Source of the DNA: Kutzneria kofuensis
Lineage (GTDB): Bacteria; Actinomycetota; Actinomycetes; Mycobacteriales; Pseudonocardiaceae
NCBI RefSeq assembly: GCF_014203355.1
Contig: NZ_JACHIR010000001.1
Span: forward strand, 8,434,038-8,498,037
Direction: 5' to 3'
DNA: 64,000 bases
The translations under genes were made by a program, and so were the position numbers. The notes under the pieces were generated by a model. The model saw only the letters and a list, made by a program, of their open reading frames with translations. It was not told where the DNA came from and searched no databases. Positions 17,463 through 63,961 of this stretch are shown here, one piece after another. Position 1 is the stretch's first letter. Each line of letters starts with the position of its first letter.

Positions 17463-17468
17463 CGTCGG

Positions 17469-22382: not shown

Positions 22383-22384
22383 CC

Positions 22385-48174: not shown

Positions 48175-48253
48175 ACCGGGCCAATTCGCTTTCCGTGACC
48201 GGACCGCCAGGAGTGGGACGGGGCACCACATCACTCTCTTCGGGAGGAGGCGC

Positions 48254-49876
48254 ATGATCGCGTCCGCTGCCGTGCCGACGGGTGCACGACCGGGGGCGGC
48301 ACCCATCGTGCTCGCCACCCCCTCACCTGTCACCCACCGCACCGCCGAGGAGAACCTCGGACTGGGATATCTCGCAGCCTTCCTCCGCGAGGCCGGTTAC
48401 GAGGTCACCATCGTCGACGGTTGGCTGCGGGGCCTCGACGTCATCGAACTCGCCGCGCAGGTGGTCGCACTCAGGCCGGTGCTGCTCGGATTCGCCTGCT
48501 ACCGCAGCAACATGCAGCGGGCCATCGAGACCATGCGCCTGGTGCGCGAAGGCGGCGTCCGGCCGTTCACCGTCGCGGGCGGTTACGGGCCGACCTTCCA
48601 CACCGAAGACTTCCTCGATGCGGGGTTCGACGCCGTGGTGCGTGGCGAGGGCGAGCTTCCGATGCGCATGCTCGCCGACCACCTCGCCGGTCGCGACGGC
48701 GCGCCGGACCTCGCGGCCATCCCCGGACTGAGCTGGCGCGCGGCCGACGGGAGAGTCCACCACAGCCCTCAGCCCGCGCCGAAGCTTCCGCTCGACAGCC
48801 TTCCGCATCCGCACCGCGACACCCTCGACCTCACCATGAAGCGGCGCAGTCTCGTCCACCTCCAGACCGCCCGTGGCTGCCAGGCCAGTTGCACCTTCTG
48901 CTCCATCGTGGCGTTCGAGCGGGTCGGCGGCGGCTCGACGTGGCGGCAGCGCGGCATCAAACACATCGCCGACGAGCTGGAGGCGCTCTGGGAGCGCGGG
49001 GCCCGTTATTTCAAGATCATCGACGATTCGCTGGTCGAACCGCCGCGGGACGCCCAGTGGTGCGCCGACCTCGCCGACGAGCTCGACCAGCGGGGGGTGC
49101 GGGCCCGGCTGCGCGGTTCGATCCGCGCCGACCGGGCCAGCGAGGACGTGGTGCGGGAACTGGCCCGCGCCGGATTCTTCTCCTTCTCCTGCGGCATCGA
49201 GAACTTCTCCCAGTCGGCGCTGCGGCGCATGGCCAAACGGGCCGACGTCGAACAGAACCACGCCGCCCTGGAACGCTTCCGGTCGCACGGCATCTACGTG
49301 CAGGCCGGGCACATCCTCTTCGACGACCGCACCAGCCTGCAGGAGCTGGAGGACAACTACGCCGGGATGCGCCGCCACTCCTGGGCGATCTCCAAGGGCA
49401 TCTTCACCGAGATGTACGCGGCGGCGGGCACCAACTTCACCCGACGGCTGGCCAAGCGCGGCGCGCTCGAGGTGGACCGCGACACGCTCGGAAACACCCG
49501 CTACGACGTGCTCGATCCACGGGTGCGGCCGATCTACGACGCGCTGAAGCGGTGGCAGAAGGCGCATTCCGGCGTCTACGACAAGGCGATCGACCCGCTG
49601 TCCGCGCCCAAGGCCCTCGATGACCGTGAACTGGCCGTCATGCACGGGCTGTACCTGGAGCTGCGCCGGATCGACCTCGATCTGTTCCGCCGCTTGCTGG
49701 ACGTCGCCGCCGGGCCGGTGCCCACCGCCCGGCTGGACGCCGAGATCGACGAGCTCGTGCGGGCCGAGACCGAGCGCACCGCCCCGTGGTACGAGCGTTT
49801 CGACCGCCGCGTCGAGGCGGCCTACCGCGACGTGGGCCTGGCCTACGACGCCGACGAGAACCCGTTTCTGTGCTGA
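48254..49876 (+). CDS. B12-binding-type radical SAM enzyme
   Basis: A 540-residue enzyme. The N-terminal 150 residues form a cobalamin-binding-like Rossmann domain (ENLGLGYLAAFLREAGYEVTI, LGFACYRSNM, VAGGYGPTFH). The radical SAM core follows with the 4Fe-4S motif ARGCQASCTFCSI, and a C-terminal helical extension ends the protein. Members of this group do methylations at unactivated carbons, ring rearrangements or other radical steps in natural product pathways; the substrate cannot be named. The ATG at 48254 has GGGAGGAGG just ahead. It is the first gene of the operon; the next starts 33 bases on. Confidence 0.9.
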   Translation: MIASAAVPTGARPGAAPIVLATPSPVTHRTAEENLGLGYLAAFLREAGYEVTIVDGWLRGLDVIELAAQVVALRPVLLGFACYRSNMQRAIETMRLVREGGVRPFTVAGGYGPTFHTEDFLDAGFDAVVRGEGELPMRMLADHLAGRDGAPDLAAIPGLSWRAADGRVHHSPQPAPKLPLDSLPHPHRDTLDLTMKRRSLVHLQTARGCQASCTFCSIVAFERVGGGSTWRQRGIKHIADELEALWERGARYFKIIDDSLVEPPRDAQWCADLADELDQRGVRARLRGSIRADRASEDVVRELARAGFFSFSCGIENFSQSALRRMAKRADVEQNHAALERFRSHGIYVQAGHILFDDRTSLQELEDNYAGMRRHSWAISKGIFTEMYAAAGTNFTRRLAKRGALEVDRDTLGNTRYDVLDPRVRPIYDALKRWQKAHSGVYDKAIDPLSAPKALDDRELAVMHGLYLELRRIDLDLFRRLLDVAAGPVPTARLDAEIDELVRAETERTAPWYERFDRRVEAAYRDVGLAYDADENPFLC

Positions 49877-49909
49877 CAAGTCACTCCACCCGAAAGGTCG
49901 TGCCGTCCA

Positions 49910-51166
49910 GTGTCTGACCCGCAAACCGCGAAGCCGGAGTTCCCGTGGGAGCGCAAGGCGCTGCCGCTGTCCGTGATCGACGCCAAGGAGCACTTCGCCC
50001 GCCCCGTCGGCCCGATCGAGTACGAGGACGCCGACGAGTGCGCCATCGACATCAAGAACATCGGCTGGACCCTGGGCAACGACTGCCCGTACCGCTGCAC
50101 CCACTGCTACTCGATGTCCGCCCGTGAGAAGGGCATGGACTTCAGCCTCGAGATCGTCGACCGCATCATCGGGCAGTTGGCCGCCAACAACGTCGAGACG
50201 GTGAACCTCGGCGGCAACGAGCCGCTGTTCACCAACGGCGCCAATCCCAAGAACACGCTGCTGCCGCAGATCATCGACGGGCTGGTCGACGCCGGGATCA
50301 TCGTGGGCCTGACCACGTCCGGCATCACCGCCATCCACCTGGAGCGCGACCACAACGCGTCCTGGCGGCGGCTCAACGACCTCGACATCAGCTTCGACTC
50401 GCCGTTCGAGGAGGAGCACAACAAGAACCGCGGCGCGAAGATCTACAAGCAGGCGATCCGCACCCTTGAGCTCGCCAAGGAGTACGGCATCGACCACTCG
50501 ATCATCATGTGCGGGATGAACTGGAACTTCACCCAGCGGCACCTGGAGGGGCTGCTGGAGCTGGCCTACAAGTACGACGCGCACATCCGCATCAACCCGA
50601 TCAAGCCGGTCGAGGGCCAGCACATGGACTCGCTGCTGTCGGCCGAGCAGTACTACGAGGGATTCGCCTTCCTGATGGAGCACTGCTCGCCGGTGGACCT
50701 CGGCGAGCCGCCGATCGCCGCCGTGACCGACTACCAGAACGCGAAGGGCTGCCCCTGCGGCCGCACGTCCTTCCGGATCCACTCCATCACCCCGGACGGG
50801 CGGATCCCGGTCTCCCCCTGCGTGTACCTGCACGACTACAAGGTGGGCGACCTGCGCAAGGACGACCTGTACGACATCATCCGCTCCCCGCAGTTCGCCT
50901 CCTTCCGCCGGCGCAACGCCAATCCGCACCTTCTTGAGGGATGCTCGGGGTGCGAGATGCTCCAGTCCTGCCGCGGCGGCTGCGCCGGACGGTCCTACCT
51001 GCACAACGCGCACGTGACCGGAGAGCGGTCGCTGTTCGTGCGCGACCCGTACTGCCCCAAGGACATCAAGCCGAAGCAGACGTTCCCGCAGCGCCCGACC
51101 GTGCCCACCGACAAGCGCCTGGTGCACATGGACTACCTCTGCACGTGGATCGGGAAGCCGAAGTGA
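49910..51166 (+). CDS. Radical SAM/SPASM-domain enzyme
   Basis: A 418-residue enzyme with the radical SAM cluster motif in GNDCPYRCTHCYSM, NLGGNEPLF after it, and a C-terminal SPASM domain with further cysteines (GCPCGRTSF, PVSPCVYL, EGCSGCEMLQSCRGGCAGR) for auxiliary clusters. SPASM enzymes often modify peptides, but others act on small molecules. No precursor peptide gene is visible beside it, so a non-peptide substrate is possible. The GTG at 49910 is reached 12 bases after AAAGG, a long spacing. Its stop overlaps the start of the kinase gene (GTGA). Confidence 0.92.
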   Translation: MSDPQTAKPEFPWERKALPLSVIDAKEHFARPVGPIEYEDADECAIDIKNIGWTLGNDCPYRCTHCYSMSAREKGMDFSLEIVDRIIGQLAANNVETVNLGGNEPLFTNGANPKNTLLPQIIDGLVDAGIIVGLTTSGITAIHLERDHNASWRRLNDLDISFDSPFEEEHNKNRGAKIYKQAIRTLELAKEYGIDHSIIMCGMNWNFTQRHLEGLLELAYKYDAHIRINPIKPVEGQHMDSLLSAEQYYEGFAFLMEHCSPVDLGEPPIAAVTDYQNAKGCPCGRTSFRIHSITPDGRIPVSPCVYLHDYKVGDLRKDDLYDIIRSPQFASFRRRNANPHLLEGCSGCEMLQSCRGGCAGRSYLHNAHVTGERSLFVRDPYCPKDIKPKQTFPQRPTVPTDKRLVHMDYLCTWIGKPK

Positions 51167-52071
51167 CCGTCCTCGACGGCGGCCTGGTCGACACCCTGCC
51201 GCGTGACCTCGCCGACCGGCTGGCCGAACGCGTCGGCGCCGACCGGCTCCGGCAGGTGCGGGCGGCGAGCTTCAAGGAGCGTTCCAGCAACGGGTGGTTC
51301 CGCGGCGCGGTCGACGGCCAGGAAGTCTTCGTCAAGCTGTACGCCCGGGCCGACCGGGCCGCGGCGGACCGTGCGGTGTCGGCGGCCGTCGGACCGGCGC
51401 ACACGACCCGGCTGCTCGGCTGGGGCCGGGACGAGCGGACCGGGGAGCACGCCGTCTTCGCCTGGGAGGACTGCACCGGCCTGCCGTGGGACGCTCGTGC
51501 GGCGGCGACCGCGGGACGGCTGCTGGCCGTGGTCCACGACACGCCGCCGCCCCTCGGTCCCGACGGGTCGCCGATCCTGGCCGGGCTCCCGACCGCCGAG
51601 AGCCACTACGACCGCCTGCTGGCCGGGCTGGCCCAGCAGGCGCCCCATCTGTTCGCCCGGATCAGCGGCCGGTTGACCGGCTCGTGGGCGACCGACCTGG
51701 TCGCGGCGGCGCAGCGCGCCGCCGCCCAGGCGCCGGCGGTGGTGCTGCACGGGGACTTCTCGTTCCGCAACATCGCGCGCACGGCACGGGGCGTGGACGT
51801 GGTCTTCGACTTCGAACGGGCCGTGACCGGGCCGGTCGAACAGGACCTGGGCCGGTTGTGGGACCGGGAGCTGGCGGCGATCGAGGGCGGTCACGACGCC
51901 TTCGTGGCCGGCTACCGGGCCGGGCGGGCCCAGGACCCCGGCCCGTTCTCGACGGCCGCGCTCGACTTCGCCCGCCTGTCGTGCGCGGTGAGCACCCTGA
52001 TCGCCGCCCGACGCACCCGTGATCCCGAGTTCGAGGCCGAGGGTCTCGCCATCCTGGAAGCACTGACATGA
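51163..52071 (+). CDS. APH-fold phosphotransferase
   Basis: A 302-residue aminoglycoside-phosphotransferase/choline-kinase-type protein. The ATP-binding Lys is in EVFVKLYARAD, the catalytic loop is VVLHGDFSFRNI and the metal-binding segment is VVFDFERAV. Such enzymes phosphorylate a hydroxyl of a small molecule, either as a pathway step or for self-protection. The GTG start overlaps the stop of the SPASM gene, and its stop overlaps the HprK-like gene, so synthesis is coupled. Confidence 0.88.
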   Translation: MTVLDGGLVDTLPRDLADRLAERVGADRLRQVRAASFKERSSNGWFRGAVDGQEVFVKLYARADRAAADRAVSAAVGPAHTTRLLGWGRDERTGEHAVFAWEDCTGLPWDARAAATAGRLLAVVHDTPPPLGPDGSPILAGLPTAESHYDRLLAGLAQQAPHLFARISGRLTGSWATDLVAAAQRAAAQAPAVVLHGDFSFRNIARTARGVDVVFDFERAVTGPVEQDLGRLWDRELAAIEGGHDAFVAGYRAGRAQDPGPFSTAALDFARLSCAVSTLIAARRTRDPEFEAEGLAILEALT

Positions 52072-53066
52072 GCAGCGACATCGATCCGGCCGCGCTGTTG
52101 GCCGTGCCCACGGCCGGCATCACCCTCGCGGTGGTCGGCAATCCGTCCGTGGTGGCGGCCCTGCGGCAGATCACCAGCCCCTTCTACCAACCCGTCACGG
52201 CGCCGCGAGGCGAGGTCTGGACGCTGAGCCTGTACATCGGGGACCCCGGCGTCGAGGCGGCCGACGAGCCGGCCCACCGCGCCGAGTTCGACATGGCCGC
52301 GCGGCGCATCACCGTGCGCTGCGCCAAGGCCGCCTGGCTGCCGGTTTTCGGCACTCGCTACGCCCGGACCCTCGTGCGGGCTCTGACCATCGGCCGCGGC
52401 GCTGTTCCCCTGCACGGCGCGGCCGTCGAGTTCGACGGGATCGGCGTCATCCTCGTCGGGGACAAGATGGCCGGCAAGACGACATCGGCGCTGTCCCTGG
52501 TGCGCTGCGGGGCCGCGCTCGTCTCCAACGACGACGTGCTGCTCGTGAAGGACGCCGTCGACGACTGGCGGCTGATCGGGGGACCCCGCTCGGTCGGCAT
52601 CCGCCTCGGCTCCCTCGCCGAACACCGCCCGGCCCTCACCGTCGACGAGGTCGCCGCGGCGACCGCGGGCCACCCCGCCAACCGCGCCGACAAGCATTTC
52701 CTGCACCCCGGCGACATCGGCCGCCTCGGTGGCGTGGCCCGTGTCCAGGCGCCCGGGCGCGTGCTCATCGAACTCGTCTGCGAGCCCGGGCCGACCAGGA
52801 GCCGCCGGCTCGACGGCGACGAGGCCGCCGCCGTGCTGAGCGTCTACCTCGAGGACGCGGCCGACCGGCGCCGGTTCGACCTCATCGGCGCCCTCGGCGC
52901 GCCGGCGCCGGCGCTGACCGCGGACACGGTCGGATCACTGGTGCGGGGGCTGGACTTCTACCGGTTCTCGCATCCGATCTCCGGCTGGGTCGACGACCTG
53001 CTCGCCTTCGTCAAGGACATCGCCGCACAGCGCGGCGGCTCGGACACCGCAGAGGTGATGGCATGA
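52068..53066 (+). CDS. HprK-like kinase
   Basis: A 332-residue protein with an N-terminal domain of unknown fold and a C-terminal P-loop kinase domain. The Walker A is VGDKMAGKTTSALSL (residues about 130-144) and VSNDDVLLV resembles the HPr kinase catalytic segment. Comparable HprK-like kinases modify lasso peptides and other metabolites, so a small-molecule or peptide substrate is more likely than HPr. ATGA overlaps link it to both neighbours. Confidence 0.82.
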   Translation: MSSDIDPAALLAVPTAGITLAVVGNPSVVAALRQITSPFYQPVTAPRGEVWTLSLYIGDPGVEAADEPAHRAEFDMAARRITVRCAKAAWLPVFGTRYARTLVRALTIGRGAVPLHGAAVEFDGIGVILVGDKMAGKTTSALSLVRCGAALVSNDDVLLVKDAVDDWRLIGGPRSVGIRLGSLAEHRPALTVDEVAAATAGHPANRADKHFLHPGDIGRLGGVARVQAPGRVLIELVCEPGPTRSRRLDGDEAAAVLSVYLEDAADRRRFDLIGALGAPAPALTADTVGSLVRGLDFYRFSHPISGWVDDLLAFVKDIAAQRGGSDTAEVMA

Positions 53067-53893
53067 AACTCGGAGTGGTCCTGCGCGCCGACAACCTGAT
53101 CCGGGAGAAGCAACTGCGCCAGAACCGGGTCGTCACCCCGTTCGGTCCGGTCGACCGCGTCTTCAGCGGCCTCGTGCACAACGTCGAGGCCCATTTCCTC
53201 TACGGCCGCTTCCCCGGCGCCCGCACGCCGAGCTGGGAGATTCCCTACGAGGCCAACCAGAGCGCCTTCGACGCGCTGGGGGTGGACCACCAGATCGGCA
53301 CGTTCGTCGTCGGCGGCGTCGACAAGTCGGTGCGCGGCGGTGACCTCATCATCCCGCACGACGTGATCAGCCTGTCCGGGCCGTCCCGCAGCCTGCCGCC
53401 GCTGGACGGCCGCTTCCGCAACGCGCACGTCATCCCGACGTTCTGCCCGGTGCTGCGGGAACTGCTGATCCGCGGTGCGCGCGCGACGGGCATCCCGGTG
53501 CACGAGAGCGGCGTCTACTTCAGCTTCTACGGCTTCGCCCGCATCGAGACCGACGCCGAGCTGCAGCTGATCGAGCGGCTGGGCGCCCGGCTGGTCGGCC
53601 AGACCCTGGACCCGGAGTTCACCCTGGCCCGGCAGCGCCAGCGGCACTACGCCGCCATCGCCATCGCCGTGGACTCCTACCACGACATGAAAAACGAGCA
53701 GGACGAGGACCCGGAGGTCTTCCGCGCCCGGTCCCGCGAGGCCATCGCCGTGGGACGGGAGCAGTTCGAGCGGATCATCGAGGCCGGGCTGGCCGGCCAC
53801 GACGAGGCGGCCGAAGGCGACTGCGGCTGCGCGAAGGTGGCCAAGGGTCCGCACCGCGACATGTTCACCTCGTTCCCGGAGCACCTGTTGTGA
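53063..53893 (+). CDS. MTAP/PNP-like nucleoside phosphorylase
   Basis: A 276-residue protein of the purine nucleoside/methylthioadenosine phosphorylase superfamily. Recognisable parts are FVVGGVDKSVRGGDLIIPHDV (as in the G-S-L-R-PGD-hVhPDQ block), GVYFSFYGFARIETDAELQLI, and LVGQTLDPEFTLARQRQRHYAAIAIAVDSY. The phosphate-binding N terminus is altered, so hydrolysis or another glycosyl transfer is possible. A C-terminal GDCGCAK segment is unusual. In context it could handle a nucleoside intermediate. It is coupled on both sides by ATGA overlaps. Confidence 0.82.
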   Translation: MKLGVVLRADNLIREKQLRQNRVVTPFGPVDRVFSGLVHNVEAHFLYGRFPGARTPSWEIPYEANQSAFDALGVDHQIGTFVVGGVDKSVRGGDLIIPHDVISLSGPSRSLPPLDGRFRNAHVIPTFCPVLRELLIRGARATGIPVHESGVYFSFYGFARIETDAELQLIERLGARLVGQTLDPEFTLARQRQRHYAAIAIAVDSYHDMKNEQDEDPEVFRARSREAIAVGREQFERIIEAGLAGHDEAAEGDCGCAKVAKGPHRDMFTSFPEHLL

Positions 53894-54912
53894 GCGCGTT
53901 CGACGGGCTGCAGGAGGCCTACCTTCACCACATCGCGGACCTCCTGCACGAACCGCAGTTCCGCAACAGCCCGCGCGGCTACGCCAGCCAGGAGCGACTG
54001 GGGGTCAGGTTCACGCTGCGCGACCCGCTGCGCCGGCTGGTCACGCACCCGGCCCGGCGGACCAACCTGGTGTTCAACTTCGCCGAGGTGCTGTGGTATC
54101 TCGCGGGCCGCGACGACCTGGCCTACCTGGCGTACTACGCGCCCAGCGTGGCCAAGTACTCCGCGGACGGCCAGCGGTTGACCGGAACCGCCTACGGGCC
54201 GCGGATCTTCGACCACGGGGCCGGGGCCGGCGACCAGTGGGAGGCCGTGACGACGGCGATCCGCGAGGACCCCGACACCAAACGCGCGGTGATCCAGATC
54301 TTCCAGCCGCGCGAGCTGCTGGTGCCCGGCAACCCCGATGTGGCCTGCACGCTGGCCCTGCAGTTCCTGCTGCGCGAGGGCCGGATGCACATGGTCGCCT
54401 ACATGCGGGCCAACGACGCCTACCGCGGCATGGCCAGCGACGTCTTCTCCTTCACCTGCCTGCTGGAGGCGATGGCCAGGAAGTTCCACGTCCCGGTCGG
54501 CTCCTACACCCACGTGGCCGGCTCGCTGCACCTGTACCAGCCCGACCTGGACAAGGCAGCCCGGCTGTTGGAGTGCCCGGAGCCGGTCGAGCCGGCGGGG
54601 GACCGGATGCCCGAGATGCCGGACGGCGACAACCGCCCGCACCTGGACCGCGTGCTGAAGATCGAGGAGGCGCTGCGGGTCGGTCGCGCGCGGCTCGACG
54701 CCGACGCGATCGAGGCGCTGGACCTGCCGTCCTGGTGGGCCCATGTGGTGCGGCTGTTCGAACTGTACCGGCGGGTGCGGGCCGGCCAGCCGGACCACGA
54801 CCGGCTGGCCGACCACCTGCCGCCGCTGTACCGACGTCTCCTGCGCCAGCGCTTCCCGTCGCTGGCGATCCACGCCCCGTCCGCCGAGGAGGTCCTCGAT
54901 GCCGCCCCATGA
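53890..54912 (+). CDS. Thymidylate synthase homologue, probable CMP/dCMP 5-hydroxymethylase
   Basis: A 340-residue ThyA-fold enzyme. The nucleophile Cys153 sits in DVACTLALQFLLREG, and the helix YMRANDAYRGMASDVFSF is the block that in true thymidylate synthases reads as G-L-P-F-N. Here Asp184 replaces that Asn (Asn177 in E. coli ThyA). The Asn to Asp change marks cytosine-specific relatives such as phage dCMP hydroxymethylase and the mildiomycin/bacimethrin CMP hydroxymethylases MilA and BcmA. It should use methylene-tetrahydrofolate to add a hydroxymethyl group at C5 of CMP or dCMP (inference). The next gene encodes the matching N-glycosidase type; the two overlap by 14 bases. Confidence 0.88.
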   Translation: MSAFDGLQEAYLHHIADLLHEPQFRNSPRGYASQERLGVRFTLRDPLRRLVTHPARRTNLVFNFAEVLWYLAGRDDLAYLAYYAPSVAKYSADGQRLTGTAYGPRIFDHGAGAGDQWEAVTTAIREDPDTKRAVIQIFQPRELLVPGNPDVACTLALQFLLREGRMHMVAYMRANDAYRGMASDVFSFTCLLEAMARKFHVPVGSYTHVAGSLHLYQPDLDKAARLLECPEPVEPAGDRMPEMPDGDNRPHLDRVLKIEEALRVGRARLDADAIEALDLPSWWAHVVRLFELYRRVRAGQPDHDRLADHLPPLYRRLLRQRFPSLAIHAPSAEEVLDAAP

Positions 54913-55429
54913 CCGTATTTTCGACCCAGCGACGCACGAGGAGCTCGACCGCCCGGTCGTGTTCCTCGGCGGCCCGTTCAAAGCCCTCATCGACCCGGCC
55001 ACCGGCCAGCTGCCGCAGCCGGTGCGCCGTCGCTACACCACGCTCATCGCCGCCTTCGAGGACGAGGGATGGGTGGTGCTCAACGCCCACCGCGCCGAGG
55101 AGTGGGGCGCCGGGCTGGTCAGCGCCGGCGAATGCACCCGCCGCGACCTGGAGTGGATGCGCCGCTGCTCGGTCTTCGTCGCCTTCCCCGGTGCGCCGGC
55201 CTCGCCCGGCACGCACGTCGAACTGGGCTGGGCGTCGGCGCTCGGCCGGCCGACCGTGGTGCTGGTGGAGCCGGGAACGGAACCCGCGGCGCTGGTCGGC
55301 GGCCTGCCCGTGGTGGCGCCGGTCACGCTCGTCGAGTACCGCGACGACCGGGACGGTGTACGCGAGGTGGTCGCGGCGGTGACGGCGGCGCTGCACACTC
55401 GGACGCCGGTCGCGGGGGTGTTGTCATGA
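54899..55429 (+). CDS. Nucleoside 2-deoxyribosyltransferase-like N-glycosidase (MilB/BcmB type)
   Basis: A 176-residue protein of the nucleoside deoxyribosyltransferase fold: FLGGPFKA (residues 23-30), LNAHRAEEWG, ECTRRDLEWMRRCSVFVAFP, and GTHVELGWASALG with candidate nucleophile Glu108. In mildiomycin and bacimethrin pathways this family hydrolyses 5-hydroxymethyl-CMP to free 5-hydroxymethylcytosine. Its place just after a MilA-like gene makes the same reaction likely. The ATG at 54899 has GAGGAGG six bases ahead, inside the end of the preceding gene. Confidence 0.88.
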   Translation: MPPHDRIFDPATHEELDRPVVFLGGPFKALIDPATGQLPQPVRRRYTTLIAAFEDEGWVVLNAHRAEEWGAGLVSAGECTRRDLEWMRRCSVFVAFPGAPASPGTHVELGWASALGRPTVVLVEPGTEPAALVGGLPVVAPVTLVEYRDDRDGVREVVAAVTAALHTRTPVAGVLS

Positions 55430-56265: not shown

Positions 56266-57332
56266 CCAGCCCGACACCAGGCGCGGACGTCGTGGTGATC
56301 GGCAGCGGGGTGGTGGGTCTGACGATCGCCTGGCTGCTGGCGCTGCGGGGGGCGGAGGTGACCGTCCTCGACGCGGCCGCGCCTGGATCCGGAGCCTCGC
56401 ACGCGGCCCAGGGCGAGCTCGTGCCACCCGGCCCCGAGCTCGAATCCTGCTTCCGACGCAGCCTGGAGCTGTACGCCCGCCTCGCGGAGCAGACCGGAAT
56501 GCCTTGGGACAGCGAGCCGATCGGCTCGCTGCTCCTGTCCGTGCCGGGCGACGGCGCCGCCGCGGGGGGCAGCACCGGATCGCGGGACCTGGTCGGTGCC
56601 GAGTACGTGTCAGGCCCCGCGCTGCGTGTGCTGGAGCCGGCCGTCGGGCCCTGCGTCGAATCGGCCTGGCTGCTGGCCGAGGGCCGCCGCATCGAGCCGG
56701 CTGCGGTGCTCACGGCACTGGCGCGGGCCGGGCAGGAGGCCGGGGCGGTGCTGCGGACGGGAGTCGGACCGCTGCGACTGGAACAGGGCGCGGGCGAAGG
56801 CTGGGTGGCCGTCGGCGAGTCCGGCACACGGGTCGCCGCGCGACAGATGGTGGTGGCCGCCGGACTCGGCTCGGCCGCGCTGCTCGCCCCGCACGGCATC
56901 CATGTGCCGCTGACCGGGGTGCGTGGGCGCGTGCTGGTCACCGAGCCGGTGCCCCCGCTGCTGCGCCGGGTGCTGGCCGAGGAGGTCGTCAGCGCTCCGT
57001 GTTCGGTGGCCCTGCTGGCCCACCAGACCCGATCCGGCCGCCTCGTGCTCGGCGGCTCCTGGTATCCGCAGGACGAGCCGGAGCCCGACGACCTGTCCGA
57101 TCGCATCCTGACCCGGGCCCGGCGCCTGCTGCCGGCCATCGGCCACCCGAGGACGGTCGTCGAGCGCCGCGGGCTGCGGCCGACGCTGCCGGACCGGCGT
57201 CCCGTCGTGGACCGCCTGGCGCCGGGCCTGTTCGGGTGCTTCGGCCACGGCGGCGAGGGCTACATCGCCGGTCCCGGGACGGCCGAGCGGCTGGCCGATC
57301 TCGTGACCGCCGGAACGGCGAGCACGGCCTGA
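56262..57332 (+). CDS. FAD-dependent amine oxidase, glycine oxidase (ThiO)-like
   Basis: A 356-residue flavoprotein of the DAO/ThiO family. The dinucleotide motif VVVIGSGVVGLTIAWLLALRG opens the protein, described here as residues 10-30; GSGASHAAQGELVPPG follows, and GLRPTLPDRRPVVD with CFGHGGEGYIAGPGTA near the C terminus is the flavin-side signature. Glycine oxidase feeds the thiazole branch of thiamin synthesis; related enzymes oxidise other amino acids or amines. GTG at 56262 overlaps the ThiD stop. The substrate remains open. Confidence 0.88.
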   Translation: MTSPTPGADVVVIGSGVVGLTIAWLLALRGAEVTVLDAAAPGSGASHAAQGELVPPGPELESCFRRSLELYARLAEQTGMPWDSEPIGSLLLSVPGDGAAAGGSTGSRDLVGAEYVSGPALRVLEPAVGPCVESAWLLAEGRRIEPAAVLTALARAGQEAGAVLRTGVGPLRLEQGAGEGWVAVGESGTRVAARQMVVAAGLGSAALLAPHGIHVPLTGVRGRVLVTEPVPPLLRRVLAEEVVSAPCSVALLAHQTRSGRLVLGGSWYPQDEPEPDDLSDRILTRARRLLPAIGHPRTVVERRGLRPTLPDRRPVVDRLAPGLFGCFGHGGEGYIAGPGTAERLADLVTAGTASTA

Positions 57333-57343
57333 GGAGAATCCCG

Positions 57344-58066
57344 ATGAGCTTTGTCGACGAGTTCCGTGAGCGCAGCGCGGACGTGTGGCGGGCCTACCGC
57401 GAGCATCCCTGGATCGAGGCGCTGGCCGCCGGCACGCTGCGGCCCGACCAGTTCGTCTTCTTCCAGATCGACGACGGATCGCACGTCACCGAGTTCAACC
57501 GCGCCATCGCGCTCGGCATCGCCAAGGCGCCGGTCGGCCACCCGTGGGCCGCCTGCGCCGCCGATGTGCTGGCCAACATGTCCACAGTGGCCGAACTGGA
57601 CGAGAAGCGCGCGCTGGTCGAGGACCTCGGCTTCCCGGCTGCCGTCGGCCGGGACCGCTGGACCGCGTCACCGGCCCGCGAGGGGTACGTCAACCATCTG
57701 GTCCGCGTCGGCCTGGAAGGCACCTTCGCGCACATCGCCACGAGCCTCTACCCCTGCTCGCTGTTCACCGAGGTGATCGGGACGCGGTTCCGCGACGTGT
57801 CGATTCCCGGACCCGAGGCCTACCGCCGGTGGGCCGACATGTACACCCGCCGCACCCGCACCCGGATGTGCGCCGCGCACGCCGCGGTGCTGGAGGACGC
57901 CGCGGCGAGCGGCAACGCGGCCGAGGTCGAGACGCTGTACCAGATCTACAAGCGCAGCCTGGAACACCAGGTGCGGGTCTTCGACGCGGCGTGGACGCTC
58001 GACGGTGTGTGGCCGGGCGGCGGCCGCGCCCGCGCCGCCGACGTGGTCGGCGGGGGCGGACGATGA
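57344..58066 (+). CDS. tenA: TenA-family protein (thiaminase II type)
   Basis: A 240-residue helical protein of the TenA family, which hydrolyses aminopyrimidines or thiamin at the pyrimidine methylene. The acidic pair in FFQIDDGSHVTEFNRA (Asp43/Asp44), Cys138 in SLYPCSLFTEVIG, and the closing QVRVFDAAW are where active-site Asp, Cys and Glu/Trp residues fall. The ATG at 57344 has GAGGAG eight bases ahead, 11 bases after the oxidase. It is the last gene of the operon and converges on the amidohydrolase with an 11-base gap and no clear hairpin. Confidence 0.9.
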   Translation: MSFVDEFRERSADVWRAYREHPWIEALAAGTLRPDQFVFFQIDDGSHVTEFNRAIALGIAKAPVGHPWAACAADVLANMSTVAELDEKRALVEDLGFPAAVGRDRWTASPAREGYVNHLVRVGLEGTFAHIATSLYPCSLFTEVIGTRFRDVSIPGPEAYRRWADMYTRRTRTRMCAAHAAVLEDAAASGNAAEVETLYQIYKRSLEHQVRVFDAAWTLDGVWPGGGRARAADVVGGGGR

Positions 58067-58077
58067 CCGCCGGCGTG

Positions 58078-59406
58078 TCACCGGTCGCGTCCGAACACCA
58101 CCTCACCCGGGGCGAACGGCCCGGTGAGCCGCGCGCGGGCCGGACTGGATCGGGCGATCTCGTGGCCGTGGCGAAACACGTGCAGGCGCGCGGGCAGCAA
58201 CCGCAGCGCCTCGATCGGATCGCGCGCGTCGAGCAGCACGAAGTCGGCCGGCCGCCCCTCGGCGATGCCGTAGCGGTCGTCCAACCGCAGCAACCGCGCC
58301 CCGGAACCGGTGACCAGGTCGAGCATGCCGGCGAGCTGCTGGTGTCCGGTCAGGTGTCCGAACAGCGCCCCGAACTGGGCCACCGCGAGCATGTCGCCCA
58401 CGCCCAGGGGGAGCCAGGCGTCCAGCACGGAGTCCTGGCCCAGTGCCACGGTGACCCCCGCCTCGCGCAGCGCGGCGATCGGCGCCATGCCGCGGCGCAC
58501 GGGAGCCGCGTCGTTGCGCCCCTGCAAGACCGCGTTCACCATCGGGTTGGCCACCACGCCCACCCCCGAGTCGGCCAGCCGAGCCGCCACCTCGCCGAGC
58601 AGCGCCGCGTCGTACGCCGCCATCGCCGTGCAGTGGCCGAGCACCACCCGGCCCTGCCAGCCGCGCTCCGCCGCCTCGCGAGCCATCGAGACGGCGAAGC
58701 GGGAACCCGGGTCGTCGGTCTCGTCGCAGTGCGCGTCGACGTCGGCGTCGAACTCCTGCGCGATGTCGAAGACGTCCCGGACATGGGCTTCGCCCTGCGC
58801 CGGCGTCGGCTCGTGGTGCGGGATCCCGCCGACGGCGTCGCAGCCACGCGCCATCGCCGCGCGCAGCGCCTCGCGCTGGCCCGGCTCGCGGTACAGGCCG
58901 TCCTGGGGGAACGCGACGAGTTGGACGTCGCACACCCCGCGGGCCTCGTCCCGCAGTTCCAGCAGGGCACTGAGGGCGTCGGGGGCGCCGGGGCTGACGT
59001 CGACATGGCACCGCACGTGCAGCGTGCCGGCGGCGACCATCCAGCGCAGCACCTCACGGGCGTTGGCCAGGATCTGCTTGCCCGTCAGGCGAGCGCGCCG
59101 CCGCGACCAGACCGCGATGCCTTCGCCCAGCGTGCCCGAGCGGTTCGGGTCCGCCGGGTCGAGGGTGAGCGCCGAGTCCAGGTGCATGTGCGCGTCCACG
59201 AAGGGCGGGACCACCAGCCGCCCCGCGGCCTCCACCACCCGTGCGCCCTGCGCCCGCGCCGTCGCGACCTCGCGGGCGTCGAGCGGCCCGACCCGGGTGA
59301 AACGCCCGTCGCCCACCAGCAGGTCCACCGGCCCGTTTCGGTCGGCGAGGAGCGCGTCACGCACGAGCAGCTGGGCGGGGACCGGTGCGGCGCCGTGAGT
59401 CTGCAC
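58078..59406 (-). CDS. Cytosine deaminase-like amidohydrolase
   Basis: A 442-residue metal-dependent hydrolase of the CodA group: PPFVDAHMHLDSALT (metal-binding His pair), DAHCDETDDPGSRF (catalytic Glu in the HCDE segment), VLGHCTAMAAY and VALGQDSVLDAW with the last metal ligand Asp. Cytosine deaminases and relatives deaminate pyrimidines and related rings. Here it may act on hydroxymethylcytosine or a later aminopyrimidine (inference). GTG at 59406 is the likely start, as the protein begins with the usual N-terminal sandwich; the frame stays open further upstream. It is divergent from the nucleotidyltransferase gene, 45 bases away. Confidence 0.88.
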   Translation of the reverse strand: MQTHGAAPVPAQLLVRDALLADRNGPVDLLVGDGRFTRVGPLDAREVATARAQGARVVEAAGRLVVPPFVDAHMHLDSALTLDPADPNRSGTLGEGIAVWSRRRARLTGKQILANAREVLRWMVAAGTLHVRCHVDVSPGAPDALSALLELRDEARGVCDVQLVAFPQDGLYREPGQREALRAAMARGCDAVGGIPHHEPTPAQGEAHVRDVFDIAQEFDADVDAHCDETDDPGSRFAVSMAREAAERGWQGRVVLGHCTAMAAYDAALLGEVAARLADSGVGVVANPMVNAVLQGRNDAAPVRRGMAPIAALREAGVTVALGQDSVLDAWLPLGVGDMLAVAQFGALFGHLTGHQQLAGMLDLVTGSGARLLRLDDRYGIAEGRPADFVLLDARDPIEALRLLPARLHVFRHGHEIARSSPARARLTGPFAPGEVVFGRDR

Positions 59407-59451
59407 CCCACCACCGTAGCCGTCGTGCCGAACAGACCGACAAGGAAGTGA

Positions 59452-60867
59452 GTGAGCACAGTGGACAGTCCCAGCGCGTATCCCGAACTCCAGCTGGGGT
59501 GCCTCGCCCCGGCGGCCCCGGTCGGCGACATCCTGGCCCGGGTCGAGCGGGTCGTGGCCGACGGCGTGCGCCGGCTGGACCGCGTCGCCGACGTCGTGCG
59601 GCGCAACCGGGTGGTCCTGCTCGCCGCGCACAACCTCGACGGCACGACGCATCCCACCGGCGCGGCGCTCGTCGCCGAGCTCGCGCCGTTCGTCGCCGAC
59701 CGGCGCCGGCGGGCCGAGGCCCTGGTGCGGACCGAGGAGTTGCTGGAGCGCCTCGGCGTCGCCCTCGGCATACCGGTGTGGGGTATCAAGGGCCTGGCGA
59801 GCCGGGCCGGGTACCCCGATCCCGCCCTCCGCGAGCTGCGGGACGCCGACGTCGCCGTCGCCGGGGCCGACGAGGCGTTCGCGCTGGCCGAGGAGCTGCG
59901 GGGGCACGGCTACGACACCGATCACGCCGAGCTGCCCTGGATCAAGCACGACGCCGGCGGCACGCCCTACGGCCAGTACAAGCTCACCGGCCCGGACGGC
60001 CACTCCGCGGTGGACATCCACTTCGGCCCCGGCTACTCCGCCGGACACTGCGGCCTGCTGCCGGTGCCCGCGCCGACCGAGCCGGGTCTACGCCCGCTGC
60101 CGATCCTGGCCAACCTGCGGCCGATGACCGGCAACAGCGGGGGAGACGTGCACGTCACCGTCAAGGACGTCAACGACCTGTGGACCGCGGCCAAGGTCCT
60201 GGACCCGGAGTCGGCCGCGGCCCTCGTCCGGGACGCGCGGGCCGCCGCCCTGCACGGGCACCTGGCCGGCATCGCCCGTCTCACCGCCGAGATCACCTCG
60301 GTCGACCGGGACCAGCGCGAGGTTCTCGACGTGTTGGTGCGGGCGGCCGCCGGTCGCGCCGGCCGCCCGGTGGTCGCGACCGGCCTGATGTCCCGCACCG
60401 CTCCGGTGCGGGTGCTGCGCACGACCGGCCGCGCCTACGCTCAGGCCCGAGCCCACACCCGCTCAGTGCCGGTCCGCGTCGCGGCGGCGGTCACCGCGTT
60501 CGCCTTCTACGTCGTCAACGCCCGTCCTCGCGTGGTCACGGCCCCGGTGCTCACCCGTAGGCCGGCCCCCTGGCGCTGCGTGCGGCTCGTTCCCGTCGGG
60601 TTGGCCGAAACTCTCGACCGGCGGGGCCCCGACGCCGCGTCGCAGTGGGAAGGCGACCGGTTGGGTTCGGCGGCCCCGCGCCCAGCGGGCGGCGGGCCGC
60701 GCCGTGAATCCCTGCGGTGGACCACGGACCGCACGGTTCTCGCGTACAACGACACGGTTTTCGTGTCCACGGTGTGGGGCGTCCTGCCCCGCGCAGTCGT
60801 GCGCAGCGCCGCGGTCGGCCCGGAGCAGAGGCGGCCGGCCCACACCGTGGCGGGGGCAGCCGAATGA
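59452..60867 (+). CDS. Nucleotidyltransferase-like protein (NTP_transf_5 type)
   Basis: A 471-residue protein. Its central part resembles the uncharacterised NTP_transf_5 family: IPVWGIKGLASRAGYPDPALRELRDADVAVAGADEAFALAEEL, shown here only as the span at residues about 105-150, then HGYDTDHAELPW and KLTGPDGHSAVDIHFG. The paired acidic residues RDADVAV fit a nucleotidyltransferase metal site. Family members occur in several RiPP and nucleoside clusters. The C-terminal 100 residues are Arg/Pro-rich and unassigned. GTG 59452 follows AAGGAAG. Its stop overlaps the next start (ATGA). Confidence 0.75.
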   Translation: MSTVDSPSAYPELQLGCLAPAAPVGDILARVERVVADGVRRLDRVADVVRRNRVVLLAAHNLDGTTHPTGAALVAELAPFVADRRRRAEALVRTEELLERLGVALGIPVWGIKGLASRAGYPDPALRELRDADVAVAGADEAFALAEELRGHGYDTDHAELPWIKHDAGGTPYGQYKLTGPDGHSAVDIHFGPGYSAGHCGLLPVPAPTEPGLRPLPILANLRPMTGNSGGDVHVTVKDVNDLWTAAKVLDPESAAALVRDARAAALHGHLAGIARLTAEITSVDRDQREVLDVLVRAAAGRAGRPVVATGLMSRTAPVRVLRTTGRAYAQARAHTRSVPVRVAAAVTAFAFYVVNARPRVVTAPVLTRRPAPWRCVRLVPVGLAETLDRRGPDAASQWEGDRLGSAAPRPAGGGPRRESLRWTTDRTVLAYNDTVFVSTVWGVLPRAVVRSAAVGPEQRRPAHTVAGAAE

Positions 60868-61856
60868 CCCCCGCACTGCACCGCCGCAGCGTCGTCACCG
60901 CCAAGGACGCCTTGGCCGTGGTCGGGCTGACGGTCGACGAGTTGGTCGCCTGCGTCGACCGCGAGCCGGCCGAGGGACCGCGCTACCTGGTCGGTTCCCT
61001 CGCCTCCGGCTTCGGCAACGACCACAGCGACGTGGACGTGCACATCCTCGTGCCCGGCCTCGAACGTCCCGTCGGGCCGCGGCTGCACCACGCCGCCGAT
61101 GTCACCGTCGATGTCGAGCTGTATCCCGCGGCCTGGCCGGCCGAGACCGTCGCCCGGGTGGGCGCGGTGCCCACCGCTGACTGGCTGCTCGGCCGGATCG
61201 CGATGGACCGGGTCGTCGACGGCGGCCAGCGGCGCTGGCTGTGCCGGTGGATGCACGCCGTGCCCCTCGACCCCCAGGACGGCCCGGTCTTCAGCGACGA
61301 AGAGATCGCCGTCCTACTGCCCGCCCTCGTCCGCGAGGCGCACGACAAGCTCCTGGTCGACGCCGCCGTCGCGCTGCTGGCCGACGCCGCCGGCCGTCGC
61401 GGCGCGGTGGCCTACCCCGAGTCGGCCCGCGACTACCTGTGGGCGCGAGCGGCCCGTGGCCTGTTGGAACTGTTCTGCCGCGCGGCCGGCGACGTGACGA
61501 CGGGGGAGAAGTGGCTGCCGGCGCGCGCCCGGCGGCTGGGCCTCGCCGTGCCGCCACCCGGGCGGTGCGCCGACGATGCCGCGTTCGTGCTCTCCGGACT
61601 GAGCTGGAGCGCCGCCGACATCATGGCCGCGGTGCACATCCACCCGGCGTCCGACGCCGCCCCGGTCGAGCTGGCCGGCCGCCGCTTCCTGGCCAACCGG
61701 CACGACCGCCTGCTGGAGACCTGGACGTCGGCCAGCGGCGCGCTCGGCGCGGCCCTGGAGGAACACGAGCCGGAGACGCTGCTGGACGCGGTGCGGTCCA
61801 CGTCCTGCGATCTGGTCGTCGACGAGGCATTCGTGCGGGAAAGGCTGGCGGCGTGA
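60864..61856 (+). CDS. Nucleotidyltransferase-domain protein
   Basis: A 330-residue protein with the polymerase-beta-like nucleotidyltransferase signature LVGSLASGFGNDHSDVDVHILV (residues about 42-63), where Gly-Ser and the Asp-x-Asp pair bind nucleotide and metal. Strand VTVDVELYP may give the third acidic residue. The rest is helical. It could adenylylate or uridylylate an intermediate. Coupled by ATGA and GTGA overlaps to genes on both sides. Confidence 0.8.
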   Translation: MTPALHRRSVVTAKDALAVVGLTVDELVACVDREPAEGPRYLVGSLASGFGNDHSDVDVHILVPGLERPVGPRLHHAADVTVDVELYPAAWPAETVARVGAVPTADWLLGRIAMDRVVDGGQRRWLCRWMHAVPLDPQDGPVFSDEEIAVLLPALVREAHDKLLVDAAVALLADAAGRRGAVAYPESARDYLWARAARGLLELFCRAAGDVTTGEKWLPARARRLGLAVPPPGRCADDAAFVLSGLSWSAADIMAAVHIHPASDAAPVELAGRRFLANRHDRLLETWTSASGALGAALEEHEPETLLDAVRSTSCDLVVDEAFVRERLAA

Positions 61857-62350
61857 GCGCGGTGGCGGGGATCGACGCGACCTGGCTGGTGACGCACGGA
61901 GCGAACGCGGCCTGGCGGTACGCCCGCTCCGTCCAGCCGACCCTGGCCGACATCGAGGCCGCCTGGCGGAACGAGGACTGGCCGCTGTGCGTGGAGGCCT
62001 GCGCGCAGGCGCTGCGCGGGATCGTGGTGTGCGGCTACTGCCTGAACGGGATGAAGACCATGCCCGACCGCACCGAGCTGCACCTGCTCATGGCGGTGGA
62101 CGAGAGCCCGGCCGCGGCGGCGCTGCGGGCCCTGCCGCGGGCTTTCGTCGCTCGACGCCAGGAGGCGTCGGACGCCAGACGGACCACTTTGGACCACGTC
62201 GCGACGCTGCGCGCGAGCCTGCCCATCGACCTGCCGGTCATTCGCGCGGCCGGCGCCCATGTGCCGACGCTGCGCGTCACCGCCCAGGTCGGCCGGTGGC
62301 GGGCGGAGCGCGGCCTCGGGCCCGTCGACTGGGATCGGTCCGGCCTGTGA
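61853..62350 (+). CDS. Hypothetical protein
   Basis: A 165-residue, mostly helical soluble protein that I do not recognise. Visible features are LCVEACAQALRGIVVCGYCLNG, with three cysteines in a short span, and a C-terminal basic stretch. The GTG start overlaps the nucleotidyltransferase stop, and its stop overlaps the PLP-enzyme start. Its tight coupling suggests it is a partner of the nucleotidyltransferase, which could need a helical partner of the HEPN/MNT kind (speculative). Confidence 0.6.
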   Translation: MSAVAGIDATWLVTHGANAAWRYARSVQPTLADIEAAWRNEDWPLCVEACAQALRGIVVCGYCLNGMKTMPDRTELHLLMAVDESPAAAALRALPRAFVARRQEASDARRTTLDHVATLRASLPIDLPVIRAAGAHVPTLRVTAQVGRWRAERGLGPVDWDRSGL

Positions 62351-63375
62351 CCGACGGGCACGACCTGACCGGCACGCCCCGGCCCTGGCCCGCCGACGTG
62401 GCCGAGCTGTGGCGGGACGGCCTGGCCGAGGCCAGCCGGGCCGCCTCGTGGGAATCCCGCCCGCCTTGGCGCGGAGTGCCCGCGCTGCGCGACGCGCTCG
62501 GCCGCCTCGTCGACTTCGACCAGGCGGCCGAGTTCCTGGTCACCGGCGGCATCCGACCGCTGATCGGCGCGTTCGCGCTGACCGGCCGCCGGGTCGTGGT
62601 CGAACGGCCCAGCTTCGAGGGCGTGGCGACCGCGTTCCGGCGCTGCGGCGCGCGGGTGCTGCGGGCGGACATCGACCAGGCGCTGCGGCTGGCCCGGCCG
62701 GCCGGCGACCACCTGCTGTGGATCACCTCGCCGTGGCGCAACCCCGACGGCTGGAGCCTGGACCCGGACGTCGTCGAGCGGCTGGCCGACTTCGTGCGGC
62801 GGGGCGGGATGCTGGTGCAGAACGAGACCTACCGCCTGTTCTCCCCGTCGACGTCCCCGGCGCCGGCGCGGGTGCCCGGCGCCTTCGTCGCCGGCTCCCT
62901 CACGAAGGCCGCCGGCCCCTGGTCCCGGCTCGGCTGGCTGATCGCTCCCGCCGTGCCCGGTCCGGTCGAGGCGCACCTGCGTGCGTCCGCCCCGCCGACG
63001 CTGTGGCAGGAGGCCTGGGCGCTGTTCGCCGCCGCGGGCGGATTCGATCGGTTGGGCCGGCGGGCCGCGGCGGTGGGGGCGTTGACCGATCGCACGGCGG
63101 CGGCCCTCGGCGGCCCCGTGACCGGAGGGACGAGCCTGCTGGTCAGCGTCAACAGCTCCGACCCGGTTGCCTTGCTGCGCCGGCGTTTCGGTCTGCTCGT
63201 CGGAAGCGGCACGGACTTCGCGGCACCGAACACCACGGCACGGTTGTGTTTCCTGGGCTGCAGTCCGGAGTGCGACCATGTCGGGGTCGAGGCGCTGGTG
63301 CGCTCCGGAGCCGCCCGGATCGTCCATGGTGGACGGAAGGCCGGGCGGCCGCTCGAACGGGGCGGGGCGGCGTGA
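62347..63375 (+). CDS. Aminotransferase-like PLP enzyme (fold type I)
   Basis: A 342-residue protein similar to class I/II aminotransferases. RPPWRGVPALRDALGRLV is the N-terminal substrate arm, VTGGIRPLIGAF the cofactor phosphate region, ITSPWRNPDGW the family Asn-Pro-x-Gly segment, LVQNETYRLF the Asp/Tyr-type contact, and GSLTKAAGPWSRLGWL holds the PLP Lys and the following Arg-Leu-Gly. It is shorter than typical enzymes (about 390). It may install an amino group or act as a decarboxylase or lyase. Its stop codon directly abuts the stop of the pyrophosphatase-like gene on the other strand. Confidence 0.82.
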   Translation: MTDGHDLTGTPRPWPADVAELWRDGLAEASRAASWESRPPWRGVPALRDALGRLVDFDQAAEFLVTGGIRPLIGAFALTGRRVVVERPSFEGVATAFRRCGARVLRADIDQALRLARPAGDHLLWITSPWRNPDGWSLDPDVVERLADFVRRGGMLVQNETYRLFSPSTSPAPARVPGAFVAGSLTKAAGPWSRLGWLIAPAVPGPVEAHLRASAPPTLWQEAWALFAAAGGFDRLGRRAAAVGALTDRTAAALGGPVTGGTSLLVSVNSSDPVALLRRRFGLLVGSGTDFAAPNTTARLCFLGCSPECDHVGVEALVRSGAARIVHGGRKAGRPLERGGAA

Positions 63376-63717
63376 CTACCGGGACACCAGCAGCCCGCCG
63401 ATCTCGAGCACGTCGTCGAGCAGCCGGCGGATCTGCTCGATCTCCGCCGGGGTGCAGTCGATGAGCACCTTGACCTCGGCGTCCCGCTTGACCGGGTCCG
63501 CGGTCACGAAGACCCCCACCACGCCGGAACCCGTCGCGCTGCCGCGGAACACGTCGATGGCGTGGCCGTCGCCGCCGGTCGTCCCGTCGAGATAGCCGTA
63601 GTCCACCGGATACACAGCCTGCGGCACCCGCGGATGCACGGAGTCCTTGGGACGGTCGACGGTCACCGTCGTCCCGGCCACCAGCGCGTCGAGGTTGGCG
63701 AAGAACGTCTCACTCAT
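63376..63717 (-). CDS. Inorganic pyrophosphatase-like protein
   Basis: A 113-residue protein matching the core of soluble family I pyrophosphatases: VYPVDYGYLDGTTGGDGHAIDVFRG, located at residues about 36-60, then a VFVTADP strand and VKVLIDCTPAEIEQI. True enzymes have about 165-175 residues and further metal-binding Asp residues, so this short form may be inactive on pyrophosphate or specialised. The ATG at 63717 lies inside the end of the acyl carrier protein gene (8-base overlap), so the two are coupled. Confidence 0.75.
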   Translation of the reverse strand: MSETFFANLDALVAGTTVTVDRPKDSVHPRVPQAVYPVDYGYLDGTTGGDGHAIDVFRGSATGSGVVGVFVTADPVKRDAEVKVLIDCTPAEIEQIRRLLDDVLEIGGLLVSR

Positions 63718-63961
63718 CCGCGCCCACCTTGGCCGCGATGAGGTCGACGATCCGTCGCACCGACCGGAAGTTCTCGAAGTCCAGCTCATCGTCCTCGAAG
63801 ACGAGGGCGAATCGGTTTTCCAGGCTCAGCGTCAGGTCGACGCTGCGCAGCGAGTCCAGGCCGTGGTACGTCAGGGGATCGAGGTCGCCGATGCGCCGCT
63901 CGTCGCCGAGTATCTGTTCGATCCGGGACCGCACGATCCCGGTTATCTCGTCTCGGTTCAT
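63710..63961 (-). CDS. Acyl carrier protein
   Basis: An 83-residue carrier protein of four helices with the phosphopantetheine attachment Ser in YHGLDSLRSVDL (about residue 37) and an acidic helix FEDDELDFENF. It should tether an acyl or aminoacyl intermediate as a thioester. No adenylation, ketosynthase or condensation domain lies in this window, so its partner is presumably to the right. The ATG at 63961 follows GAAAGG. It is coupled to the pyrophosphatase-like gene. Confidence 0.9.
   Translation of the reverse strand: MNRDEITGIVRSRIEQILGDERRIGDLDPLTYHGLDSLRSVDLTLSLENRFALVFEDDELDFENFRSVRRIVDLIAAKVGADE

Follow-up and report, generated by a model that had tools for sequence, protein, structure and literature searches.

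A conserved two-module gene cluster in Kutzneria kofuensis points to an undescribed natural product

Which product would call for a cytidine monophosphate (CMP) hydroxymethylase, an N-glycosidase and thiamin-type enzymes to be encoded together with two radical S-adenosylmethionine (SAM) proteins? The question is raised by a 64,000-nucleotide stretch of Kutzneria kofuensis DNA (the window; G000:C1:8434038-8498037, from a genome of 10.4 Mb), in which 19 genes (44845-63961) were assigned to one cluster. An initial annotation had named most of the gene families, described an almost fully coupled operon and stated that no known pathway held the whole set. The named families are present by Pfam and PDB sequence searches, and the operon was found as described: ten plus-strand genes (48254-58066) encode, in order, B12 radical SAM, SPASM radical SAM, APH-like, HprK-like, MTAP-like, MilA-like, MilB-like, ThiD-like, ThiO-like and TenA-like proteins, with a single 33-base gap (49876 to 49910) and all remaining junctions overlapping or at most ~11 bases apart. 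Seven more genes follow up to 63961. The cluster comprises two separable modules, each found apart from the other: module 1 (MilA-, MilB-, ThiD-, ThiO- and TenA-like enzymes) and module 2 (the radical SAM pair, the kinases and a pyrophosphatase-like protein). Literature searches returned no description of such a cluster in open-access papers, nor an identical cluster with a known product, and the gene content points to an undescribed natural product.

Predicted pyrimidine supply by MilA-, MilB- and CodA-like enzymes

Conversion of CMP to 5-hydroxymethyl-CMP (hmCMP), and thence to free 5-hydroxymethylcytosine, is well supported by sequence. The best PDB match of the MilA-like protein is the MilA structure 5jnh (381 bits), and the seven diagnostic residues E68, K133, C155, A176, D186, H216 and Y218 are all identical (7/7); they are also kept in 21/21 aligned homologues, the aligned set being part of those fetched. 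In PMC5175136, Glu68 and Cys155 are catalytic, His216 and Tyr218 bind ribose, and Lys133, Ala176 and Asp186 give MilA its CMP preference beside the catalytic set, the first two selecting ribose over deoxyribose and the third cytosine over uracil. The gene is the sole PF00303 match in the genome. Since the genome also encodes ThyX, deoxythymidine monophosphate (dTMP) need not come from this enzyme; on this ground and by its CMP-enzyme residues, a housekeeping ThyA was rejected. The same sequence evidence speaks against the possibility, raised initially, that the enzyme makes dTMP from deoxyuridine monophosphate. The MilB-like protein carries Lys at the position of MilB Arg23, as in 10/10 loci with module 1 and in five other aligned loci, and the position is Tyr and Leu in two related but distinct clusters (G057, G224). 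In PMC4081090, BcmB has Lys where MilB has Arg23, and a positive charge at this site is tied to hmCMP specificity and to MilA linkage. The motif F-L-(G/A)-(G/A)-P-F-(R/K)-X-L-(L/V/T) is matched at 9/10 positions (F-L-G-G-P-F-K-A-L-I in the window), the final Ile lying outside the published L/V/T. The MilA/MilB-like functions that had been proposed are supported by sequence, as is a pyrimidine-derived product, and we regard the first two or three pathway steps as strongly supported. The CMP hydroxymethylase and hmCMP N-glycosidase are shared with the mildiomycin pathway, the comparison covering these two enzymes; here they are joined by homologues of ThiD, TenA and ThiO and by the second module.

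Deamination of the pyrimidine ring by the CodA-like enzyme is likely, judged by its residues. Its best PDB match is Klebsiella 4r7w (3e-90), titled a cytosine deaminase in the PDB, which we take to be the Klebsiella pneumoniae 5-methylcytosine deaminase. Both proteins have the marker Ser, which stands at the position of CodA Asp315 (the paper's numbering) in 9/9 loci; PMC6186785 gives Ser at this site in the Klebsiella 5-methylcytosine deaminase and describes the site as governing acceptance of 5-methylcytosine. The CodA active-site residues and this Ser are kept in the window, the five Streptomyces loci described below and the locus G001. The enzyme is thus predicted to act on 5-substituted cytosines; unlike 4r7w it sits in a biosynthetic cluster, with hydroxymethylcytosine as its predicted substrate. 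That deamination is real is also argued by an independently built cluster (L042, below), which has a deaminase of a different fold.

Conservation and separability of the two modules

Five Streptomyces (L026, L027, L028, L031 and G863; order taken from tblastn and gene calls together) carry the complete set of 17, running from the B12 radical SAM gene to the acyl carrier protein (ACP) gene, in the same order and on the same strands, with 51-90% protein identity to the window; L031 and G863 are near-identical here. Such collinearity in five genomes argues that the cluster is more than chance, and the genes that had been proposed to form one pathway are conserved as a unit in soil bacteria that are only distantly related, rather than scattered. 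Two Nocardia loci (L029, L030) hold 13/17 genes, along with the ligase, decarboxylase, dehydrogenase, C39 exporter and condensation protein (Pfam for L029 only), and G001 holds 14/17, rearranged, in a stretch cut at one end. At a threshold of E 1e-60 or better, the SPASM protein was found in 3/297 genomes of the window's family (its own included), 2/392 Streptomyces (one being the centre of the search), 4/150 Nocardia and 1/396 phylum-drawn genomes (the window's own). By the rarity of these matches the gene set is rare, but it is kept as a unit where MilA and SPASM co-occur.

Module 1 stands alone in a Streptomyces metagenome bin (L025), with MilA, MilB, ThiD, ThiO and TenA plus a second oxidase of the DAO family; its 21 kb gave no match to any further gene of the cluster. 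Its five proteins are 70-79% identical to those of the window and fall in a clade with them (support 1.0), and MilA and MilB are fused in one 499-residue open reading frame (ORF; L025:9992-11491) with both domains, the second just under the Pfam cut-off. Conversely, module 2 occurs without MilA on a S. clavuligerus plasmid (L055; B12 radical SAM, SPASM, APH, HprK and pyrophosphatase-like proteins at 71, 87, 51, 48 and 70%). Also without MilA, an Enterococcus plasmid (L057) carries both radical SAM enzymes with a diphosphatase and an AMP-ligase/carrier protein, and a Phaeobacter plasmid (L056) the SPASM enzyme and diphosphatase with no recognisable B12 enzyme. Smaller sets comprise the two radical SAM enzymes and a pyrophosphatase-like gene in G099 (no other match in 40 kb) and likewise in G1160 (where the latter gene was recognised solely via the Phaeobacter homologue); both lack MilA. 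In G1103 the radical SAM pair is accompanied by HprK- and MTAP-like matches. In L110 (14911-18237) and L111 (G099), the B12 radical SAM, SPASM and pyrophosphatase-like genes lie alone beside a phage-integrase-family gene and a Tn3 transposase, and because of these neighbours the three-gene core may move as cargo.

The SPASM homologues of Actinomycetota, Phaeobacter and Enterococcus show 57-90% identity, and the family is found on plasmids of three phyla. Close to the C-terminal end, 11/11 aligned proteins have an invariant LVHMDYLCTWIG. Among 25 of the 45 NCBIfam matches of the window's protein, the general SPASM domain model alone passes its cut-off. By these sequence features it represents an unnamed, highly conserved radical SAM/SPASM family. 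A Viperin identity was rejected, the PADLOC pVip match (2.8e-10) being read as the common radical SAM core only. For the B12 radical SAM enzyme, 0/21 NCBIfam matches reach their cut-off. The GGSG sequence near the N-terminus and the RHG loop are the phosphate-binding motifs of methylthioadenosine (MTA)/purine nucleoside phosphorylases; in 11/11 loci of the MTAP-like protein the RHG position reads YGR and GGSG is absent from the N-termini. Since both motifs are missing, this protein is probably not a phosphorylase, and a plain MTA phosphorylase for 5'-deoxyadenosine salvage, an idea from PMC8102628, was rejected.

Within the window's family, 21 MilA-positive genomes were found, and flanks were examined in 18. 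MilA, MilB, ThiD and TenA lie within 10 kb in 7/18 (the window's own, G001, G057, G224, G094, G143 and G246), each of the four at no less than 41% identity to the window's protein; the other 11 genomes miss one or more at this level. L042, from a Micromonosporaceae bin, is an independently built cluster with MilA, a deoxyribosyltransferase-family protein (Nuc_deoxyrib_tr), ThiD, TenA, an MTAP-like protein, a radical SAM enzyme, nucleotidyltransferase-like and P-loop proteins (both below cut-off) and a cytidine-deaminase-family deaminase. Three loci of the window's family (L076, L077 and L082) combine MilA, MilB, ThiD and TenA with a xanthine-dehydrogenase-like molybdopterin protein, a different elaboration of the same pyrimidine; in L076 and L077, the two tested, the MilB residue corresponding to Arg23 is Tyr or Leu.

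Candidate products

Tentatively, and as the likeliest of the explanations considered, we favour a conserved natural-product cluster in which its two separable modules join a pyrimidine to a second building block. The MilA-like enzyme would hydroxymethylate CMP, the MilB-like enzyme would release 5-hydroxymethylcytosine as the free base, and the ThiD-like kinase would phosphorylate its hydroxymethyl group. With the TenA-like protein an amine would displace the phosphate at the C5 methylene, the ThiO/MnmC-like oxidase would trim the introduced amine, and the CodA-like enzyme could deaminate the ring. Module 2 would prepare the second building block from a common metabolite. The ACP, AMP ligase, pyridoxal phosphate (PLP) decarboxylase and acyl-CoA dehydrogenase would furnish an acyl or aminoacyl unit, transferred by the condensation protein; ligase, decarboxylase and ACP of this kind give aminoacyl-ACP units in macrolactam and butirosin pathways. 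Export of the conjugate would proceed via ABC transporters, the C39 exporter lying beside a GG-leader peptide in the window strain and the two Nocardia.

The ThiD-like gene is a second full-length copy in the genome, and stronger ThiD and TenA family matches exist elsewhere (G000:C1:3651939 and 3232079); the cluster genes are therefore extra copies, and housekeeping thiamin functions were rejected. The TenA-like protein retains the Asp44, Tyr112 and Cys135 positions of TenA (thiaminase II), and Cys135, the TenA nucleophile, is kept in 15/15 loci. It scores 76.7 bits against an NCBIfam cut-off of 130 and passes the looser Pfam cut-off. MnmC oxidises a 5-carboxymethylaminomethyl-pyrimidine, and the ThiO-like protein, of the same DAO family, matches ThiO and, more weakly, MnmC (NCBIfam). 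Because both window proteins are far under NCBIfam cut-offs, they are read as side branches. Aminopyrimidine is the preferred TenA substrate in PMC5627462. Amine displacement and oxidase trimming are proposed on this preference and on the MnmC match, and our best guess is that TenA and ThiO connect the pyrimidine to the module-2 product through a linkage of the aminomethyl type. Enzyme families, the specificity residues of MilA, MilB and CodA, synteny and separability can be read from the sequence; how the pathway continues past 5-hydroxymethylcytosine, how the parts are joined and what the peptide does are what we infer.

Several observations weigh against this conjugate. In 53 kb around the Nocardia loci, no homologues of the pyrophosphatase-like, PLP, ACP and NTP_transf_5 proteins were found, and both Nocardia CodA-like proteins keep the Ser but have Gln for a pocket His, so that deamination may be lost there. 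The TenA Tyr47 position is His in the window cluster, and the order in which TenA and ThiO act, or their substrate, may differ from that proposed. For the chemistry of module 2 there is no analogue to lean on. A PDB search with the pyrophosphatase-like protein gave nothing significant (best pyrophosphatase E 0.065); its Phaeobacter counterpart exceeds the Pfam cut-off. Finally, the GG-leader peptide is not universal, as it was not found in the five Streptomyces or G001.

This peptide underlies the best-surviving alternative, itself unlikely, in which the product is a ribosomal peptide: the SPASM enzyme and the HprK-like kinase would modify the GG-leader peptide, a pyrimidinylmethyl group would be transferred to its Thr, Ser or Cys, and C39 would cut and export it. 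A GG-leader ORF does lie near the C39 exporter and condensation protein in the window strain and both Nocardia (Pfam on one Nocardia), with cores SGLTINSCI in the former and TVTPCPAMS and TVTPCPVMK in the latter. Shuffling each of the three regions 2000 times (first-order Markov) produced an ORF of this type in 3, 4 and 4 cases, by criteria set after the peptide had been seen. SPASM, HprK-like and nucleotidyltransferase genes are common in peptide clusters. Moreover, two Streptomyces carry a decayed C39 gene (L031/L061 region, composite 32393-33142; G863:C1 ~3708985-3709734) between ACP and ligase, where the full gene stands in the window strain: a peptidase stretch without the DCG motif runs straight into the final portion of the ABC domain. 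The remaining three Streptomyces gave no match to the peptidase part at E 1e-3. Peptide and exporter either stood at this site in the ancestor or were acquired and then lost. Against a peptide scaffold, the peptide occurs in 3/9 cluster loci, the five Streptomyces and G001 retain most of the cluster without any such peptide having been found, the cores of the two lineages have little in common, and inspection by eye of the small ORFs listed for the surroundings of minimal module-2 loci showed no GG-type leader. Peptide and exporter are thus not required for the rest, and the peptide as an obligatory part was rejected on the 6/9 full or near-full loci in which it was not found. SynChlorMet/PqqE-like peptide cassettes likewise combine a SPASM radical SAM enzyme with an HprK-like kinase (NCBIfam ScmE and ScmC matches), but both window matches are far below cut-off, and no PqqD domain was found among the scanned proteins of the cluster.

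Slightly less likely is a thiamin antivitamin, in which ThiD would pyrophosphorylate hydroxymethylcytosine or its deaminated form to give a false pyrimidine for thiamin synthesis, like bacimethrin or oxythiamin. Bacimethrin (bcm) operons include MilA-, MilB- and ThiD-type genes, as described in PMC5627462 and PMC12345177, and the names TenA and ThiO stem from thiamin metabolism. However, scans of the 19 window proteins and of five encoded downstream revealed no methyltransferase domain, nor any ThiE- or ThiG-like protein, and an Rfam scan of the window gave no family at gathering score, hence no thiamin pyrophosphate riboswitch. A bacimethrin cluster was rejected for want of a methyltransferase for the 2-methoxy group. 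The cluster differs from bcm in its TenA/ThiO homologues, MTAP-like and CodA-like proteins, radical SAM pair, ACP and condensation protein; an antivitamin would not account for the radical SAM module, the ACP, the ligase, the decarboxylase or the condensation protein, and separate, bacimethrin-looking MilA-methyltransferase-MilB loci occur in the same family (L079, L085). In addition, the CodA-like enzyme would presumably remove the 4-amino group needed by thiamin. The thiamin antimetabolite, offered initially as part of the best guess, hence no longer leads.

More doubtful again is a hybrid of three biosynthetic logics, in which a nucleotide-derived pyrimidine, attached by thiamin-type enzymes working in reverse, a radical-SAM unit and an ACP-borne acyl group would be assembled on a short ribosomal peptide, later lost in the Streptomyces branch, where the rest is kept. 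Just as improbable is that the cluster yields 5-hydroxymethylcytosine itself or a similar nucleobase antibiotic, with CodA, nucleotidyltransferases and kinases for self-protection: CodA does lie on the opposite strand with a pocket suited to 5-substituted cytosines, but CodA, both nucleotidyltransferases and the kinases are collinear in five Streptomyces, CodA is also in Nocardia and G001, and many further biosynthetic genes are conserved alongside.

Extent of the cluster and its significance

The coordinates of the cluster are collected in Table 1. The genes first listed up to 63961 are present, but the cluster continues 9.7 kb beyond the window end, to ~G000:C1:8507767, and the list lacked the two SARP regulators (44845-47904), the pyrophosphatase-like gene (63376-63717, minus strand) and the helical gene (61853-62350), whose product is possibly a partner of the preceding nucleotidyltransferase. 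The PLP enzyme that had been named is there and is corrected to Aminotran_1_2; CobD is the nearest NCBIfam model, its score far under cut-off. The NB-ARC regulator has a homologue just beyond the ABC genes in the five Streptomyces loci. An IS110-family transposase (L002:10139-11419, minus strand; ~7 kb past the window end) has split the PLP decarboxylase gene from that of the acyl-CoA dehydrogenase by insertion; the two are adjacent in the Streptomyces loci.

Table 1. Features of the cluster, in window coordinates; those beyond 64,000 continue the same numbering.
Feature	Position	Strand	Basis
SARP-type regulator (Trans_reg_C + BTAD)	44845..45639	+	Pfam
SARP regulator with NB-ARC domain	45829..47904	+	Pfam
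B12-binding radical SAM enzyme	48254..49876	+	CxxxCxxC as CQASCTFC; B12-binding 1.1e-18, Radical_SAM 3.5e-13
Radical SAM/SPASM enzyme, C-terminal LVHMDYLCTWIGKP	49910..51166	+	Pfam
APH-like small-molecule kinase	51163..52071	+	Pfam 5.3e-15
HprK-like kinase, P-loop GDKMAGKT	52068..53066	+	below Pfam cut-off
MTAP/PNP-fold protein	53063..53893	+	Pfam, PDB sequence search
Putative CMP 5-hydroxymethylase, MilA/BcmA type	53890..54912	+	PDB 5jnh E 4e-113
Putative hmCMP N-glycosidase, MilB/BcmB type, FLGGPFK	54899..55429	+	PDB 4jem E 2.5e-36, best PDB match
ThiD-like pyrimidine kinase	55426..56265	+	Pfam, PDB sequence search
ThiO/MnmC-like FAD amine oxidase, DAO family	56259..57332	+	Pfam, NCBIfam
TenA-like protein	57344..58066 (start may be 57329)	+	Pfam, PDB sequence search
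CodA-like deaminase	58078..59406 (start uncertain)	-	NCBIfam, PDB sequence search
NTP_transf_5 nucleotidyltransferase	59452..60867	+	Pfam 2.6e-11
Nucleotidyltransferase-fold protein, GS...SDVD motif	60864..61856	+	weak Pfam, below cut-off
Small all-helical protein, HEPN-like model	61853..62350	+	
PLP enzyme, Aminotran_1_2, CobD-like	62347..63375	+	Pfam, NCBIfam
Small inorganic-pyrophosphatase-like protein	63376..63717	-	Pfam, below cut-off
ACP	63710..63961	-	Pfam, NCBIfam
Condensation-domain protein	64122-65507		Pfam 2.8e-15
32-residue GG-leader peptide ORF, MDNSEVLDIQELSDEMLAEIVGG-SGLTINSCI	65672-65770		
C39-peptidase ABC exporter	65895-68321		Peptidase_C39 1.8e-30
AMP ligase	68324-69799		Pfam
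PLP decarboxylase	69796-71082		Pfam
Acyl-CoA dehydrogenase	72528-73730		

Elsewhere in the window, the minus-strand region 20330-22543 resembles a lasso-peptide cluster, with a PqqD protein (20330-20593; Pfam 7.7e-18), an asparagine-synthase C-terminal part (20571-21185; 6.2e-16) and a 52-residue ORF (22385-22543) whose possible core, GPVIALFPDGVAHMRF, was picked by eye for Gly1, Asp9 and Thr at -2 and has no Pfam match. A minus-strand series of secreted-looking carbohydrate-active proteins occupies 1840-19454; scans of three identified an arabinofuranosidase, a GH2 protein and a GH6 protein, with lectin or cellulose-binding domains, and LacI-like genes were seen by eye on the opposite strand.

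Few products built on 5-hydroxymethylcytosine are known; if the conjugate reading is true, the cluster would extend them by a new class and would represent a recruitment of thiamin salvage enzymes (ThiD, TenA and ThiO) for conjugate building. It would also provide an entry point to an unnamed, highly conserved radical SAM/SPASM family, and the natural split between the modules means that each half can be tested alone.

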